A DNA stretch of 64,000 nt. Origin: a bacterium. GTDB lineage: Bacteria; JAJVIF01. Positions 4,848-58,826 of the stretch are shown in pieces. Location: positions 62,001 through 126,000 of the forward strand of contig JAJVIF010000002.1 of assembly GCA_022072165.1 (NCBI GenBank). The letters run 5' to 3'. The notes beneath the pieces are model-generated. The model was not told where the DNA came from. It did not search any database and saw nothing but the letters and a program-made list of their open reading frames with translations. Positions within the stretch are counted from its first letter, which is position 1; each line of letters starts with the position of its first letter. The position numbers were made by a program, and so were the translations under genes.

Positions 4848-4882
4848 GAGCAGGGGGATGCTACCGCGAATCGTCAGGGGCG

Positions 4883-5656
4883 TCAGTGCCCGGCGGACCC
4901 CGGCTCCTGCGGTGCGCGCAATTCCTCGATCGCCTGTCGCAAATCCGCGAGCTTGTCACCGCTTCCGGCAGCAGCCCCATCGGAGTCGTCGCCGACAACC
5001 CAGACCCGGGCTTCACGCTCCGCCTGGCCGGATTCCGGACCAAAGAGTGTCGCACCATCCAGACGCGGTAACGGGGGGGTCCCCTGCCCCATCTGGCGCT
5101 GCACCCGCTGCAGGACCGCAGCGAATCCGGCGGGGTTGGGGGTACCGGGAGGTGGTGACAGGGTCCGGAGGAAGAAGGCGACCCGCTCAGGATCGGTAAT
5201 CCGTTCGATCAGGGTGATGCTGGTTCCAGTCGCGCCGAGAAGCAGCAACTCATCGTGGAAGCGGACTACATGCAGCGCGAGTCCCGGCGCGATGGGCACG
5301 ACTGTCAGGGGTTCGATCAGGCTGCTTGCCATCCCCCCAGGGGAGCGTCGATAGAGCCAGCGCATGATCGCGACCAGGCCATAAATCAGTCCGCTGCAGA
5401 TCAGCAACCAGACCGCCACAGTCAGGAGATAGCGTCCGATGCTCGCCCCCGGCAGGCTGGAGGTCGGGGAAGTCTCCGAAGCGATCCCGGCAGCGCCCAG
5501 ATCGCCATCGAGATTCAGGGGCCGCTGTTCGCGGGGGTCCACTACCGGCGCTGCCGTCTCGTCAGCCGCTGGCGAGTCGCCAGCGGGTTGCGCCATGGTC
5601 GCCATGGGCGACAACGCGAGGAGGAGGCATATGAGCCAGAGGACAGCGCGAGTCAC
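4883..5656 (-). CDS. fliO: FliO, flagellar export apparatus assembly protein
   Basis: 257 residues. FliO is a membrane scaffold for FliP assembly. A signal-like hydrophobic start (RAVLWLICLLLALSPMATMAQ) is followed by an Asp/Pro-rich linker, one transmembrane helix (YLLTVAVWLLICSGLIYGL) and a cytoplasmic FliO domain (LTVVPIAPGLALHVVRF..ELLLLGATGTSITLIERI). I chose GTG 5656 because it overlaps the stop of the cheY-like gene as GTGA, typical of translational coupling. The reading frame continues upstream but gives a non-family extension. The C-terminal tail is low-complexity. Confidence 0.9.
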   Translation of the reverse strand: MTRAVLWLICLLLALSPMATMAQPAGDSPAADETAAPVVDPREQRPLNLDGDLGAAGIASETSPTSSLPGASIGRYLLTVAVWLLICSGLIYGLVAIMRWLYRRSPGGMASSLIEPLTVVPIAPGLALHVVRFHDELLLLGATGTSITLIERITDPERVAFFLRTLSPPPGTPNPAGFAAVLQRVQRQMGQGTPPLPRLDGATLFGPESGQAEREARVWVVGDDSDGAAAGSGDKLADLRQAIEELRAPQEPGSAGH

Positions 5657-6012
5657 AACAGCGCCTCTTTCAGGGCCAGGACCAGGTCGGCGGACTCGTA
5701 GGGCTTTGCGACAAATCCAAGCGCACCGAGTTCCTGGGCACGCTGCCGGACTCCGGCACTGGCAGAGCCCGTAACCATCACGACCCGGGCCGTGGGATCC
5801 TGGGCGCGGAGGGCAGCAAGGCAATCCAGGCCATTGAGGACGGGCATCTGCACATCGAGGGTCACGACATCGGGAGTCACCGACGGATAGAGCGCCAGCG
5901 CGATCGCGCCATCTTCGGCTTCCCCAACAATCTCATGCCCCGCAGGGACAAGCGACACCCGGGCGACTGCTCGCCACTCCGGGGAGTCATCGACGATCAT
6001 CACCCGCGCCAT
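5653..6012 (-). CDS. CheY-like single-domain response regulator
   Basis: 119-residue stand-alone receiver domain. Acidic pocket D8-D9, phosphoacceptor D53 in VTLDVQMP, T81 and K103 (AKPY) are all present, so it should be phosphorylatable. It sits between fliY and fliO, so a chemotaxis or motor-switch role is likely, perhaps binding FliM, whose N-terminal peptide is encoded two genes away. It has a leaderless promoter of its own in addition to read-through from fliY, and its stop overlaps the fliO start by 4 bases. No output domain. Confidence 0.9.
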   Translation of the reverse strand: MARVMIVDDSPEWRAVARVSLVPAGHEIVGEAEDGAIALALYPSVTPDVVTLDVQMPVLNGLDCLAALRAQDPTARVVMVTGSASAGVRQRAQELGALGFVAKPYESADLVLALKEALL

Positions 6013-6019
6013 GATCGGG

Positions 6020-6025
6020 AGTGTA
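6020..6025 (-). promoter_or_regulatory. -10 element TACACT for the cheY-like gene, leaderless
   Basis: TACACT on the minus strand ends 7 bases before ATG 6012 and sits in the 18-base gap after fliY, giving an operon-internal promoter. Confidence 0.55.
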
Positions 6026-6030
6026 GCGCC

Positions 6031-7032
6031 TCACCGGAGGCTCTGCAGTCGCTCCTCCGGCGAGACAATAGATGTGATCCGCATCCCGAAGCTTTCATCA
6101 ATCACGACTACCTCACCCTTGGCGAAGAGCTGGCCATTGATCATCAGGTCCAGGGGCTCGCCCGCGAGGCGATTGAGTTCAATGAGCGCGCCGGGAGAGA
6201 GCTCGAGAATCTCCTTGATCGTGAGGTCCTGACGCCCCAGCTCCACCGTAATGGTGAGCGGGACATCCTTCAGCAGATCAATGCGGGCGGGTTCCGTCTG
6301 AGGAGCCTGACGCTCTCCCAACTGCTGAAACTGTGGACGTCCGACAGCGATGGGCTCAACAGGCGAGCCGCCCGGGGCAGGTCCTGGGGTCGGGGCAGAC
6401 ATGGCGGCATCCATGGGGGCGGTCTCCGGTGGGGTGTATGCAGGATGACTGGTGACCAGTACGGTAGCAGCAGCCGGTGTCAGCCAGAGTTGCAGGCTGC
6501 CAGCCGCGCCATTCACCAGAAAAGGATGATGTTCGAGAATGGCCGGTCCGGAACGGGCCAGGGAGCTTTGCAGCAGGACCCCGCCCGCCATCAGCGGATC
6601 GGCGGCGGACTCCAGCGAGACCTCCTGACGCGCCTGTCCCAGCATCGCACTGACACTCGCGCTCCAGCGCCCCAGCACATTGGCCAGGGTATCCCGCAGC
6701 ATCGGCACATGGATCTCTTCGATCGCTGCTGCCGGTCCGGGGTCGCCCAGCAGCGCTCCGATGAGATGCAAAAGGCCCTCGCCTTCGCAGAGGACGACCC
6801 CTTCCAGCGGCAGATCAGGTCCGATCGAGAATGGGAAGGCGATCGATGAGAGCGAGAGCGACTGCGCGACCGATGTCACTGGTAACAGTTGTGGGCTGGC
6901 GGCACCGAACTCCAGCGACCCACCGATCAGCATCGCGCCCAGGACATCCTGTGCGCCGGGGGCCAGCAATGCAATGGCTTCCCGATAGAGGGGATGGCCA
7001 AGATCGAAGGCGGGAGGTGTCACGCTGGCCAT
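6031..7032 (-). CDS. fliY: FliY/FliN-type flagellar motor switch protein
   Basis: 333 residues. The N-terminal about 200 residues resemble the CheC-like middle domain of FliY (for example EGEGLLHLIGALLGDP and the IHVPMLRDTLANVLGRWSA helix), then a Pro-rich linker (about 205-245) and a C-terminal SpoA/FliN domain (LKDVPLTITVELGRQDLTIKEI, then GQLFAKGEVVVIDESFGMRITSIV). It forms the C ring with FliM and FliG. It lies 6 bases after fliM, so it is coupled. CheC-type acidic/Asn catalytic residues are not obvious, so phosphatase activity on the CheY-like protein is uncertain. Confidence 0.93.
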   Translation of the reverse strand: MASVTPPAFDLGHPLYREAIALLAPGAQDVLGAMLIGGSLEFGAASPQLLPVTSVAQSLSLSSIAFPFSIGPDLPLEGVVLCEGEGLLHLIGALLGDPGPAAAIEEIHVPMLRDTLANVLGRWSASVSAMLGQARQEVSLESAADPLMAGGVLLQSSLARSGPAILEHHPFLVNGAAGSLQLWLTPAAATVLVTSHPAYTPPETAPMDAAMSAPTPGPAPGGSPVEPIAVGRPQFQQLGERQAPQTEPARIDLLKDVPLTITVELGRQDLTIKEILELSPGALIELNRLAGEPLDLMINGQLFAKGEVVVIDESFGMRITSIVSPEERLQSLR

Positions 7033-8295: not shown

Positions 8296-8841
8296 CTACT
8301 GGGCGACCAGGGTCGTGAAATGGACCTGCACGACCGGTGGCGTCCCTGCCTTCCCGGTTTTGGGGTCCGCCGGGGGCGTGAAAGCCACGTTCAGCGCCTC
8401 TAACAGCTTTGTCGCGTACTTGCGCTGGCCCGCCTCGGTCGAGATGGACGCGTAGGCGACATTGTTCATGATGCCGTTGATGATGGACTTCAGCTTCGGA
8501 AGCTTCGCCCCCAGGGCATCGGCGGCCTGGGTGTCGGTGACTTCCAGGGAAATTGCGAACTTCAGGTAGCTGTAGGGGAACTCCTGGCTCGGCTCCAGAT
8601 TGACGATGAATGGATCTTCGATGGAGTAGAACGCGCCTCCTTCGGCGGGACGTTCATCTCCCATTCCATCGGCGTCATCAGTTTGCTCGGCGGACACAGG
8701 CGCCTTCGGCTGCAGTAGCAGGATCGCCGCGACACTGCCGCCGCCGACCAACAGGGCAACGGCCAGGACAATCCCGATGAGCAGGGGGAGCGGCAGGGCG
8801 ACTGCGCCCCGGGACGGTGTGGCCTTCTCACTCTCTGCCAT
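8296..8841 (-). CDS. fliL: FliL, flagellar basal-body/stator-associated protein
   Basis: 181 residues. A single transmembrane helix (about residues 19-44, PLPLLIGIVLAVALLVGGGSVAAILLL) is followed by a periplasmic FliL domain (YSIEDPFIVNLEPSQEFPYSYLKFAISLEV) and a C-terminal LNVAFTPP..VVQVHFTTLVAQ. FliL supports the stator. It follows motA and motB, the common order. I chose ATG 8841 (MAESEKATPS); an upstream in-frame ATG at 8880 would add 13 residues. A terminator hairpin lies just downstream. Confidence 0.92.
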   Translation of the reverse strand: MAESEKATPSRGAVALPLPLLIGIVLAVALLVGGGSVAAILLLQPKAPVSAEQTDDADGMGDERPAEGGAFYSIEDPFIVNLEPSQEFPYSYLKFAISLEVTDTQAADALGAKLPKLKSIINGIMNNVAYASISTEAGQRKYATKLLEALNVAFTPPADPKTGKAGTPPVVQVHFTTLVAQ

Positions 8842-8913
8842 GTGGTGCCTCCAGGACAGTGTGGTCCGCAGTAGTGTCATCCGCAGGACGCTGACTCACT
8901 TAAGGAGTCTTCA

Positions 8914-9789
8914 TCACGGACCGGTCGCTGCCGCCGAGTCCTTGGCGACTTCGGGCGGCAGGGCCAGAAGATCGACCTGCTGCTTGTCCCCTGGCAGTGA
9001 TTCCGGCACCACGATGGTCTCTTCGCCGGACTGCCCTGTCGGGACCTCGACAGTCTTGTGCTCTTCTTCGGCCAGGATCATGATTTCCACGCGCCGGTTG
9101 TACGCCCGGCGCTCCGGGGTGTCGTTGGGGACCAGGGGCCAGTACTCGCCATAGCCGGCAGCGGTCAGACGATGCGGGGTGATGCCTTCGTTTTCGATGA
9201 AGTAGTGCACGACCGCGGTTGCGCGGGCGGTGGAGAGTTCCCAGTTCGACGGGAACTGTGCCGTGTTGATCGGGGTGCTGTCGGTGTGCCCCTCAATGGC
9301 GACCCGATTCGGCACTTCGAGCAGCATGTCGGCGACCAGCCCGAGGACTTCCCCGGCATCCGGCCGGAGCTGGGCGGACCCCGGCGCGAAGAGCGTCCGG
9401 TCCGTGAAACGGAGCTTGAGTCCCTGGTCGGTGATTTCGGTTTCGATCCGCCCATCGACAGCGAGGGTTTCGATCTGCTTCGCGTACTTTTCACGAATGA
9501 CATAGAGCGGCGTGATCTGGGTCGGGACCCGCTCATCGCCGGGGGGGATATTGGTGGGGAGGTCAGCGAGATAGAGCACGCCCGGTCCTCCCGAGAGGAC
9601 ACCGAAAGCACCATTGAGGGAGATCACGACTTCCTGGAACTTCGTGACATCGACCATCGACATCGAGTAAAGCAGGACGAAGAAAGCCATGAGGGTGGTC
9701 ATCATGTCTGCGAAAGAGACCATCCACAGCGGCGCGCCAGCGGGCTTGTCCCCGCCGCTACCGCCTCCCCGACTCCGTCCGGCTGCCAT
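8914..9789 (-). CDS. motB: MotB, flagellar stator subunit
   Basis: 291 residues. The N-terminal plug/transmembrane segment PLWMVSFADMMTTLMAFFVL contains the proton/ion-carrying Asp (D28). The periplasmic OmpA-like peptidoglycan-binding domain (from about residue 135) carries IEGHTDSTPI and NWELSTARATAVV. It follows motA by 6 bases. The sequence does not tell H+ from Na+ coupling with confidence. The Gly/Arg-rich N-terminus is cytoplasmic. Confidence 0.96.
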   Translation of the reverse strand: MAAGRSRGGGSGGDKPAGAPLWMVSFADMMTTLMAFFVLLYSMSMVDVTKFQEVVISLNGAFGVLSGGPGVLYLADLPTNIPPGDERVPTQITPLYVIREKYAKQIETLAVDGRIETEITDQGLKLRFTDRTLFAPGSAQLRPDAGEVLGLVADMLLEVPNRVAIEGHTDSTPINTAQFPSNWELSTARATAVVHYFIENEGITPHRLTAAGYGEYWPLVPNDTPERRAYNRRVEIMILAEEEHKTVEVPTGQSGEETIVVPESLPGDKQQVDLLALPPEVAKDSAAATGP

Positions 9790-9795
9790 ACGTGC

Positions 9796-10599
9796 TTATG
9801 CCTCCACAGCGGCGGCTTTGGCATCTTCCGCCGCGAAACGTCGACGCAGGGTCGGTGACAGGAAGCTCAGGAGCTTCTGCTCCACCAGCTTGGGGTTTTC
9901 GCCCTGCTGGATGGCGAGGATGCCCTCCACGATGACCTGCTTGCCGAGCATTTCCTCGCGATGGCGCATTTCGAGCTTGTTGCTCATGGGGATGAAGATG
10001 AAGTTCGCTCCGATGGCGCCGACGAACGTGGTGATCATGGCCAGGGACATCCCGGGGCCGATGGCTGATGGATCCGAGAAGTTTGCCAGCATGATGATGA
10101 GCCCCATGACGGTCCCGATCATCCCCATCGCCGGAAGGAGCGCGCCGAACTGGTCGAGCACCTTCTTCCCGGCGGCGTGACGATCTTCCAGGAAGGCCAG
10201 GTCGATTTCGAGAATCGAGCGGACAATCTCCGGCTCGGTCCCATCGACCACCATCTGCAAACCGGTCTGCAGGAAGGGGTCCTCGATGTTCGCGGTTTCT
10301 TCTTCCAGAGCCAGCAGTCCCTCACGTCGGGCCTTCTCCGCCATGCTCACCAGCGTACCGACGAGGCCATAGAGGTCCTTGCTTTTGCTGAAGAGCGTTT
10401 TGGCGAACACTTTGCCCGCGTTGATGACCTGGTCCATCGGGAACGAAATCAGGATGGCACAGACTGCGCCACCCATCACCAGGACATAGCTCCCGGGATC
10501 CCAGAAGAGCCGCAGGTTGCTGGGTCCCTGGGAGCCCATCATCCCCCAGATGAAGCAGCCGATGCCCGCGATGAGGCCGATGATCGTTGCGATGTCCAT
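9796..10599 (-). CDS. motA: MotA, flagellar stator subunit
   Basis: 267 residues, normal length, four transmembrane helices (about 4-20, 34-50, 155-175 and 188-208). The TolQ/ExbB/MotA core is visible: the LLPAMGMIGTVMGLIIML helix and the cytoplasmic loop with KARREGLLALEEE. MotA surrounds MotB and pushes on FliG. It is the first gene of the motA-motB-fliL unit, which has a roughly 150-base leader following the flgE terminator. Confidence 0.96.
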   Translation of the reverse strand: MDIATIIGLIAGIGCFIWGMMGSQGPSNLRLFWDPGSYVLVMGGAVCAILISFPMDQVINAGKVFAKTLFSKSKDLYGLVGTLVSMAEKARREGLLALEEETANIEDPFLQTGLQMVVDGTEPEIVRSILEIDLAFLEDRHAAGKKVLDQFGALLPAMGMIGTVMGLIIMLANFSDPSAIGPGMSLAMITTFVGAIGANFIFIPMSNKLEMRHREEMLGKQVIVEGILAIQQGENPKLVEQKLLSFLSPTLRRRFAAEDAKAAAVEA

Positions 10600-55639: not shown

Positions 55640-57418
55640 CTAGTAGGCGCTATCGGCTAAGGCATATCGCAAGCGCGTAGTGGTCGGTTCACACCAGAAG
55701 ATGGCAATGCGCCCATTGAGCTCCAGCACCAAAGGTGGCACCCAGTAGCGCCCCTCGTTCCCCTGGGCAAACGCCACAGTTGTGCGCCGCCAATCCTGGA
55801 GTCTCTCTATATCGGTCGTCACCTGACGGGCGAGGCGAAGCCTCTGATTCGTGTTGTCAAAATAGGCGACGGCAGCGCGTCCCAAAACGATGCCTACGGA
55901 GGGAGCAACGCTTGCCGCAGGAGGACTCTCCAAAATGAAATATGTCCAATCCGTGTACCCAGGATTTGAGAGCGGAGTGCTCGCCACTGTCACGTTCTTC
56001 ATCATGAAATCGTTGGCCACTACTCCCCAGCCAGATTTATGCGGCCATAGGTCAAGATTACCATCCATGCCGCTGTTACCTCCAATGAACTCGGCTGTCC
56101 AGTCCTCACTGGCACGAGGCGGGCTGTCCGTTCAGCGATACAACACAGCGGACTCCCCCGCCGGCCCCCAGTTATCCAGTGGGCCATAAGTCGAGGCGAT
56201 AGAGTAAATGCTCCCATCCCGTTCAATAATGCGGCCAAGGACTGCGGCTTGCCCACCACCGCCAGAATATGGGGCTTCGACGAAGTACACTATCCAATCC
56301 TCGGTTGAGTAAGGAGCGTCCGCCGACACGAGGACAGGCAGCCCACGGCCCATGGTCGTTCCTAACAAAAATTCGTCATTGATGCTGGTGAGAGCATAGA
56401 GGGCGAACCCCATTGTAGTGCCGTGCTTCACCTCGTGGATCTGCCAGTCCGCACTCGTCGCTGGTTGCGCAACATCCGCCCAAGCCAAGTATTCGCGAAC
56501 ATCGGTTCGGGGACGGCGGTTGGTGCCGAAGTGCCTCTGGTAGAGAATCGCCAACCGACCCTGTTGGATTGTTAAGGAGTATCTTCCCGAGACGAAGCCG
56601 TCGGGATCAATGATGTGTTCCTCTCAGTCCTCAGGTGTTAAGGGCATCGCGACCAGGGCTCGACGAATCGCTAGTCCCTCAGGCGAGGAGTAAGCCAGCA
56701 CGACTCGCCCATCCATCACCAGGCCAGTCACCATGGCGTAGGGAGCGCGCAGAATTCCCCGCTCCTGGCTTCCGGCACATGGCCCTAAATCCTGGACGGT
56801 CCAGGTCGGCACAACTGGGGTGCCGACCGTGAACTTGAAGGTAAGCGTGTTTGAACTGCCATACACGTTTGAGGCGCGCACAGTGCCGCTATAGGTACCA
56901 GGATTTGGGAGTGAGACTTCCGGTTCCGCGACATCGAATTCGGCTGGTGCTGCTGACATAAGGTTGAATTCCCACTACCAGGCCGTCGCGTTCGGCCAAT
57001 TCAGGACCGCGCTGAACAGCACGGTGCCCGCAGGCAGCCCCACGTCACTTTCCGGTGTCACTGAGTCGATCACAGGGACGCCAGCTACAACGTACACTTC
57101 TGAGGCGGAGTGAGTCATACCGCCATCGGTGATTTCCAAGCTGACTGCATAGGCACCGGGATCTCGAAGGATGACTGTAGGCGTCGCATCGGTGCTGGTC
57201 GACGGCATCGTCCCATCACCAAAACTCCACGCATAGGTCGCTCCGAGGCTGAGCTCGTCGATCTCAGCGGAGAATTGCACCTCGGCATCCGGGGCACCGA
57301 TAGTACCGATGGGGGAAATCGTGAGCGGCATGCCCGGGTTGGTTCCTTTCGTCGAGCAACCGGACACGACGTGTGCTAGCAGCAGGGACACTGCACGGTA
57401 GAGCCAGCGGTGGTGCAA
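55640..57418 (-). pseudogene. PKD/beta-propeller lipoprotein frame interrupted by three in-frame stops
   Basis: One reading frame, 593 codons including stops, no frameshift. Start TTG 57418 is 8 bases after TAATAT and gives a signal with lipobox HVVSGC. Then a PKD domain (TYAWSFGDGTMPSTSTDATP, residues about 55-100), a second PKD-like domain, and propeller-type repeats (GQAAVLGRIIERDG; GRAAVAYFDNTNQRLRLARQ; three xDW units). Internal stops: TAG 56977-56975, TGA 56626-56624, TGA 56134-56132. Homologous repeats run on both sides of each stop. It looks less GC-rich than its neighbours. Either a young pseudogene or a recoded gene. Confidence 0.7.
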
Positions 57419-57599: not shown

Positions 57600-58826
57600 C
57601 TACTTGATCACGTTCACCAGGTTGAAGATCGGCAGATAGAGGGAGACCACGATGACCCCGATGATCCCACCGATGATCACGATCAGCAGCGGCTCGATGA
57701 GCGAGGCCAGACCCCGGACCGTGTTGTCGATCTCATCATCGTAGTAGTCGGAGAGCTTGTAGAGCATCTCCTCCAGGTTCCCGGCATCCTCCCCGACCGC
57801 AATCAGGTTCGTGACCATGGCCGGGAACTGCTTGGTCCGCTTCATGGGCGCGTTGATCGACTCCCCTTCCCGGATGCGGTCGCGGGTGTAGTCGATGGCG
57901 TTGGCGATCACGATGTTGTGCGCCGTATCGCGGGTCACCTCGAGGGCTTCCACCAGCGGCACGCCGGACTCCTGGAGGGTCCCCAGGGTCCTGGTAAACC
58001 GGGTGATGGCGACCTTGCGGGCCAGCGGGCCAAAGATGGGCATCCGCAGGGAGATCGGGTCGCAGACCCGGTGGCCCAGCTTCGTGCCCCGGAACTTCCA
58101 GAAGAAGATCGCCGCGATGGCGGGAATGATGGTGTAGTAGTACCAGTGGTAGCGGAACTCTTCCGAGATCTCCAGCATCTTCTGCGTGAGTTCGGGGAGT
58201 TGCGCCTCGCCGCCGGAGAAGTCCTTATAGAACTCGGCGAACTGCGGGATGATGTAGATGAACATGAACAGGATGATCAGGATCGAGACCCCGACCACCA
58301 GGCTCGGATACACCATCGCCGACTTGATTTTGTTGCGGAGTTCGAGTTCGTTTTCATAGAACTTCGCCACGCGCTGGAGGATCTTGTCCAGCACGCCACC
58401 GACCTCGCCGGAGTGGATCATGGCGATGAAGAAGTTGGAAAACGCCGCCGGATGCTTCTTCATCGACTTGGCGAGGGTCTCGCCCCCCTGGACGTCCATG
58501 CGGACCTTGTGCAGGATCTTCTTGAACTTCCGGTTGGTGGTCTGCTCTTCCACCGTATCCAGGGTCTCGGAGATCGTGAGCCCGGCGTTCACCAGGAGGC
58601 TCATCTGCCGGGAAGAGAGGGTGAGGAGCTTGAGCCCGACTTTCGTGAAGTAGTCGATGACATCCCAGGGATGCCAGCCCCATTGCTTCTTCTCATAGAT
58701 CTTGAGAACGAAGTACCCCTCCTTCTGGAGGGTATCGACAACGGAGTGCTGGGAATCCGCATCGACCGAGTTCCGGATGATGTTGCCGGAAGAGTCGCGG
58801 GCGACGAAGACGTATTGCTTGGCCAT
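57600..58826 (-). CDS. pilC: PilC/GspF-type inner membrane platform protein
   Basis: 408 residues. Two T2SSF repeats (residues about 70-190, SLLVNAGLTISETLDTVEEQ; and about 275-400, FTRTLGTLQESGVPLVEALEVT) and three membrane helices (about 168-190, 220-240, 375-400). It is the platform protein of type IV pili or type II secretion. The N-terminus KQYVFVARDSSGNIIRNSVDADS is the usual PilC beginning. pilB is not in the window. It has a promoter about 75 bases upstream. Confidence 0.93.
   Translation of the reverse strand: MAKQYVFVARDSSGNIIRNSVDADSQHSVVDTLQKEGYFVLKIYEKKQWGWHPWDVIDYFTKVGLKLLTLSSRQMSLLVNAGLTISETLDTVEEQTTNRKFKKILHKVRMDVQGGETLAKSMKKHPAAFSNFFIAMIHSGEVGGVLDKILQRVAKFYENELELRNKIKSAMVYPSLVVGVSILIILFMFIYIIPQFAEFYKDFSGGEAQLPELTQKMLEISEEFRYHWYYYTIIPAIAAIFFWKFRGTKLGHRVCDPISLRMPIFGPLARKVAITRFTRTLGTLQESGVPLVEALEVTRDTAHNIVIANAIDYTRDRIREGESINAPMKRTKQFPAMVTNLIAVGEDAGNLEEMLYKLSDYYDDEIDNTVRGLASLIEPLLIVIIGGIIGVIVVSLYLPIFNLVNVIK

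Follow-up and report, generated by a model that had tools for sequence, protein, structure and literature searches.

A lipoprotein frame with three in-frame stops, probably a fairly recent pseudogene of a multi-copy PKD/DW family

Can a bacterial gene that is stopped three times by in-frame nonsense codons, and shifted nowhere, still yield its full-length protein? The question is raised by a locus in a 64,000-nucleotide stretch of DNA (contig JAJVIF010000002.1, positions 62,001 to 126,000; hereafter the window), where positions 55640-57418 of the minus strand read as a PKD/DW-repeat lipoprotein gene of 592 codons with three internal stops. An earlier note on this DNA had left three options: a very young pseudogene, assembly or sequencing errors, or stop-codon recoding. 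The first of these is the best supported. With a probability of about 0.8, we regard the locus as a fairly recent, ordinary pseudogene that belongs to a multi-copy and lineage-specific family of PKD/DW lipoproteins, one that gains and loses copies; intact paralogs, disabled sister copies and standard decoding all point in this direction.

The frame and its three stops

As the earlier note had described, a single frame leads from the lipobox to a final TAG and is stopped by only three codons, with 592 codons translated between 57418 and 55640. Counted from 0, the internal stops are codons 147 (TAG), 264 (TGA) and 428 (TGA). The remaining frames of the same region hold far more stops (23 and 18 on the minus strand; 16, 17 and 24 on the plus strand), and mononucleotide shuffles average 20, with a minimum of 6 (n = 2000). 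A stop count far under the 16-24 of the five other frames, and under the shuffle average, marks the frame as a true coding relic. It contains a lipobox, a PKD domain (Pfam PF00801, E = 3.8e-14), a second PKD-like domain and repeated, propeller-like DW motifs; the list of open reading frames shows no overlapping gene of 100 codons or more on the plus strand inside the region. The frame was also said to be free of frameshifts, and comparison with the paralogs revealed no compensating one, at an identity (about 30%) too low to judge small in-frame indels.

Stop 1 (TAG; 56975-56977, minus strand) lies within the second PKD-like domain, in a W-x-W context. Its position between two Trp codons had suggested a change from TGG to TAG, which is not borne out by the family, where the corresponding column holds Ser (15), Ala (10) and others (4). 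The same stop restricts the claim that DW repeats continue on both sides of every stop, which is correct for stops 2 and 3 only. Stop 2 (TGA; 56624-56626, minus strand) occupies the conserved Trp of a DW repeat motif, and stop 3 (TGA; 56132-56134, minus strand) falls in a column of Ala (30), Ser (8), Thr (7) and others (4). Two TGAs at such unlike residues (Trp versus Ala/Ser/Thr) are a misfit with one reassigned meaning. No notable stem-loop was seen 3′ of any of the three stops.

The lipoprotein signal region with its lipobox, V-S-G-C (57356-57418, minus strand), has no convincing start: a Shine-Dalgarno sequence is absent at TTG 57418, and none is well placed at the upstream ATG 57460 or ATG 57529. 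Scans of the locus returned no promoter-like site, with nothing above shuffles, and one terminator-like site that is not above shuffles; an Rfam search across the region gave no match.

The lipoprotein family and its disabled copies

About 20 intact paralogs with uninterrupted frames are present in the host genome. The best of these (G000:C2:658245-659990) aligns across residues 1-586 with 29% identity (E = 1.6e-35). Orthologs at the family, class or phylum level were not found in the three other genomes of the phylum examined (four including the host). A search of the GTDB genome collection returned nothing beyond PKD-level similarity, in unrelated bacteria, and a plasmid search for relatives gave no match.

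Counting the present copy, at least three members of the family are disabled. One sister copy (L049 1081-2929; G000:C1, about 1823080-1824928) is broken by one frameshift and has an otherwise clean C-terminal part, and another (L055 8837-11647; G000:C2, about 418836-421646) carries four frame changes and two in-frame stops. With two sister copies disabled, copy loss appears normal for this family, and frameshifts do occur there. The stretch C1:961060-961455 (two TGAs and one TAG) was rejected as a further stop-bearing member, as its alignment had overrun the natural end of the open frame. The last part of L055:8837-11647 contains a metalloprotease-like HELAHVFNLPH motif.

Three tandem paralogs are located on the minus strand of L049 (G000:C1:1822000-1834000), at about 1081-2929, 4853-6673 and 8591-10432. 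Approximately 450 bases of their front DNA are 96-100% identical and their propeller halves are strongly diverged, with a dS of 0.03-0.08 in the first 200 codons and up to 0.9 beyond. Such a pattern, with the front constant and the back variable, is suggestive of gene conversion or reshuffling. Two other members, similar to each other (L057:1274-2915 and L057:9048-10731, plus strand), lie about 7.8 kb apart and have the lowest GC3 among the intact paralogs (0.67-0.68).

The upstream neighbour of the present copy (57600-58826, minus strand) is intact and encodes a PilC-like protein, which we take to be an inner-membrane protein of type IV pilus/type II secretion. This gene is kept in two relatives within the phylum (77% and 75% identity), where it is followed by a different, unrelated lipoprotein gene, so the site carries lineage-specific genes. 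In a same-class relative (L120:5427-8780), the PilC-like gene is directly followed by lipoprotein genes in tandem whose signal peptides are almost the same, and each genome seen has different lipoproteins at this spot.

Composition and domain scores set the broken copy near or beyond the edge of its family. Its GC (0.584) and GC3 (0.645) are under those of all window genes and intact paralogs compared, whose GC3 ranges from 0.67 to 0.90. Relative to leave-one-out scores of 32 intact domains, one of its PKD domains is the second lowest (66.1 bits, range 60-120) and the other the third lowest (59.3 bits, range 52-111); the blade past stop 2 scores near the median of intact blades. The shift in GC3 is too big for the approximately 60-90 substitutions implied by three stops, and must therefore be partly older than the breakage or have another cause.

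Alternatives to a pseudogene

If the stops were recoded or read through, a full-length lipoprotein would result, and it fits such a scheme that the interruptions are stops only and that one of the TGAs takes the place of a conserved Trp. The decoding capacity of the genome argues otherwise. The Rfam tRNA model finds 46 tRNA genes, which ARAGORN types as standard throughout, including one tRNA-Trp with CCA; the suppressor tRNA for which the earlier note had proposed a search is not among them, as the anticodons CTA, TCA and TTA occur in none of the 46. A tRNA-Sec model, run over the genome, reached at best 45.8 bits (cut-off 47 bits), at a place that is a tRNA-Ser(tga). RF1 and RF2 are present, both over their family cut-offs, and TAG and TGA are routine terminators, ending 18 and 8 of 33 window genes (TAA ends the other 7). 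Both stop types are involved in the broken frame, the TGAs stand at unlike residues, no stimulatory stem-loop accompanies them, and the intact paralogs need no readthrough. The recoding option is contradicted by this evidence: general recoding is excluded as far as present tools show, and specific readthrough is not supported by any positive sign. We consider readthrough or recoding at this locus highly improbable. The same holds for a low level of readthrough by near-cognate tRNAs, which would produce some full-length surface lipoprotein, keep the frame under selection and so explain why frameshifts are missing.

It is also improbable that the gene has been split into separately translated pieces through internal starts such as ATG 56068, which lies about 63 bases past stop 3 and has GGAGGT nine bases 5′ of it (region 56068-56083, minus strand). 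The last open piece from this ATG (55640-56068, minus strand) has 142 codons; it would be a fragment without a signal peptide, cut from a repeat protein, and the other pieces are without good starts. GGAGG occurs 239 times in the window on both strands, and the GGAGGT before ATG 56068 is probably there by chance, with reinitiation possible. The main rival, itself rather unlikely, is that base-calling or assembly (strain-mixture) errors account for one or more of the stops, in which case the cell would carry an unbroken gene. In its favour, the assembly (four contigs, 99.1% complete) has an unstated read type, the frame is otherwise clean, and the blade past stop 2 scores like intact ones. However, for a single gene of 1.8 kb to collect three substitution errors independently would be unlikely, the other main window genes are clean, and the gene in question stands out by a low GC3 and a low PKD score as well. 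Errors in long reads are mostly indels, which likewise counts against this explanation. We treat the stops as probably real bases in the cell.

Decay by nonsense substitutions and comparison with known systems

For a pseudogene, the course of events would be simple: selection on the present copy would have lapsed, and three nonsense substitutions would then have arisen by chance, with no frameshift. Any translation would run for about 147 codons, as far as the first TAG, leaving no full product and presumably no functional one. A counterpoint is that neutral decay would bring a frameshift in most cases. Among random substitutions in this frame, 3.3-4.8% are nonsense; the probability that nonsense accounts for all three disabling mutations is then about 0.24-0.35 at 0.02 frameshifting indels per substitution, 0.015-0.034 at 0.1 and about 0.01 at 0.15. 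One measured pair of indel and substitution rates (1.55e-10 and 1.14e-9) gives a ratio of about 0.14, with not all indels being frameshifting (PMC5833318). The earlier argument that decay should bring indels as well is thus right in direction but weak, as the probability varies between about 0.01 and 0.35 with the indel ratio and the finding was picked for its pattern. Three nonsense changes without a frameshift are mildly unusual at most under neutral decay, in a finding selected for that feature.

Alone, one decaying copy in a multi-gene family is of little weight. The lesson is that, where several stops interrupt a frame that otherwise stays in phase, the tRNAs, the release factors and the paralogs should be checked before recoding is proposed. 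The family, in which about 20 members are intact, at least three are disabled and one tandem set shares near-identical front ends, may itself be interesting as a system of surface-lipoprotein turnover in a poorly sampled phylum.

Among known systems, the closest are the intact PKD/DW lipoproteins of the same genome (G000:C2:658245-659990 and C2:129312-131165), which likewise have a lipobox, PKD-like domains and DW repeats at 29-34% identity; unlike the broken copy with its three internal stops, their frames are uninterrupted. A survey of pseudogenes in 64 prokaryote genomes found many with atypical codon-position GC (PMC522871). Pseudogenes of bacterial multi-copy families resemble the present case in having a disabled copy, intact relatives in the genome and atypical GC at codon positions (PMC522871), whereas here the frame is damaged by nonsense changes alone and by no frameshift. 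The likeness to stop-codon reassignment (NCBI codes 4 and 25) or selenocysteine insertion is superficial and limited to an in-frame TGA or TAG; here, in contrast to those systems, the tRNAs, release factors and routine termination point to the standard code.
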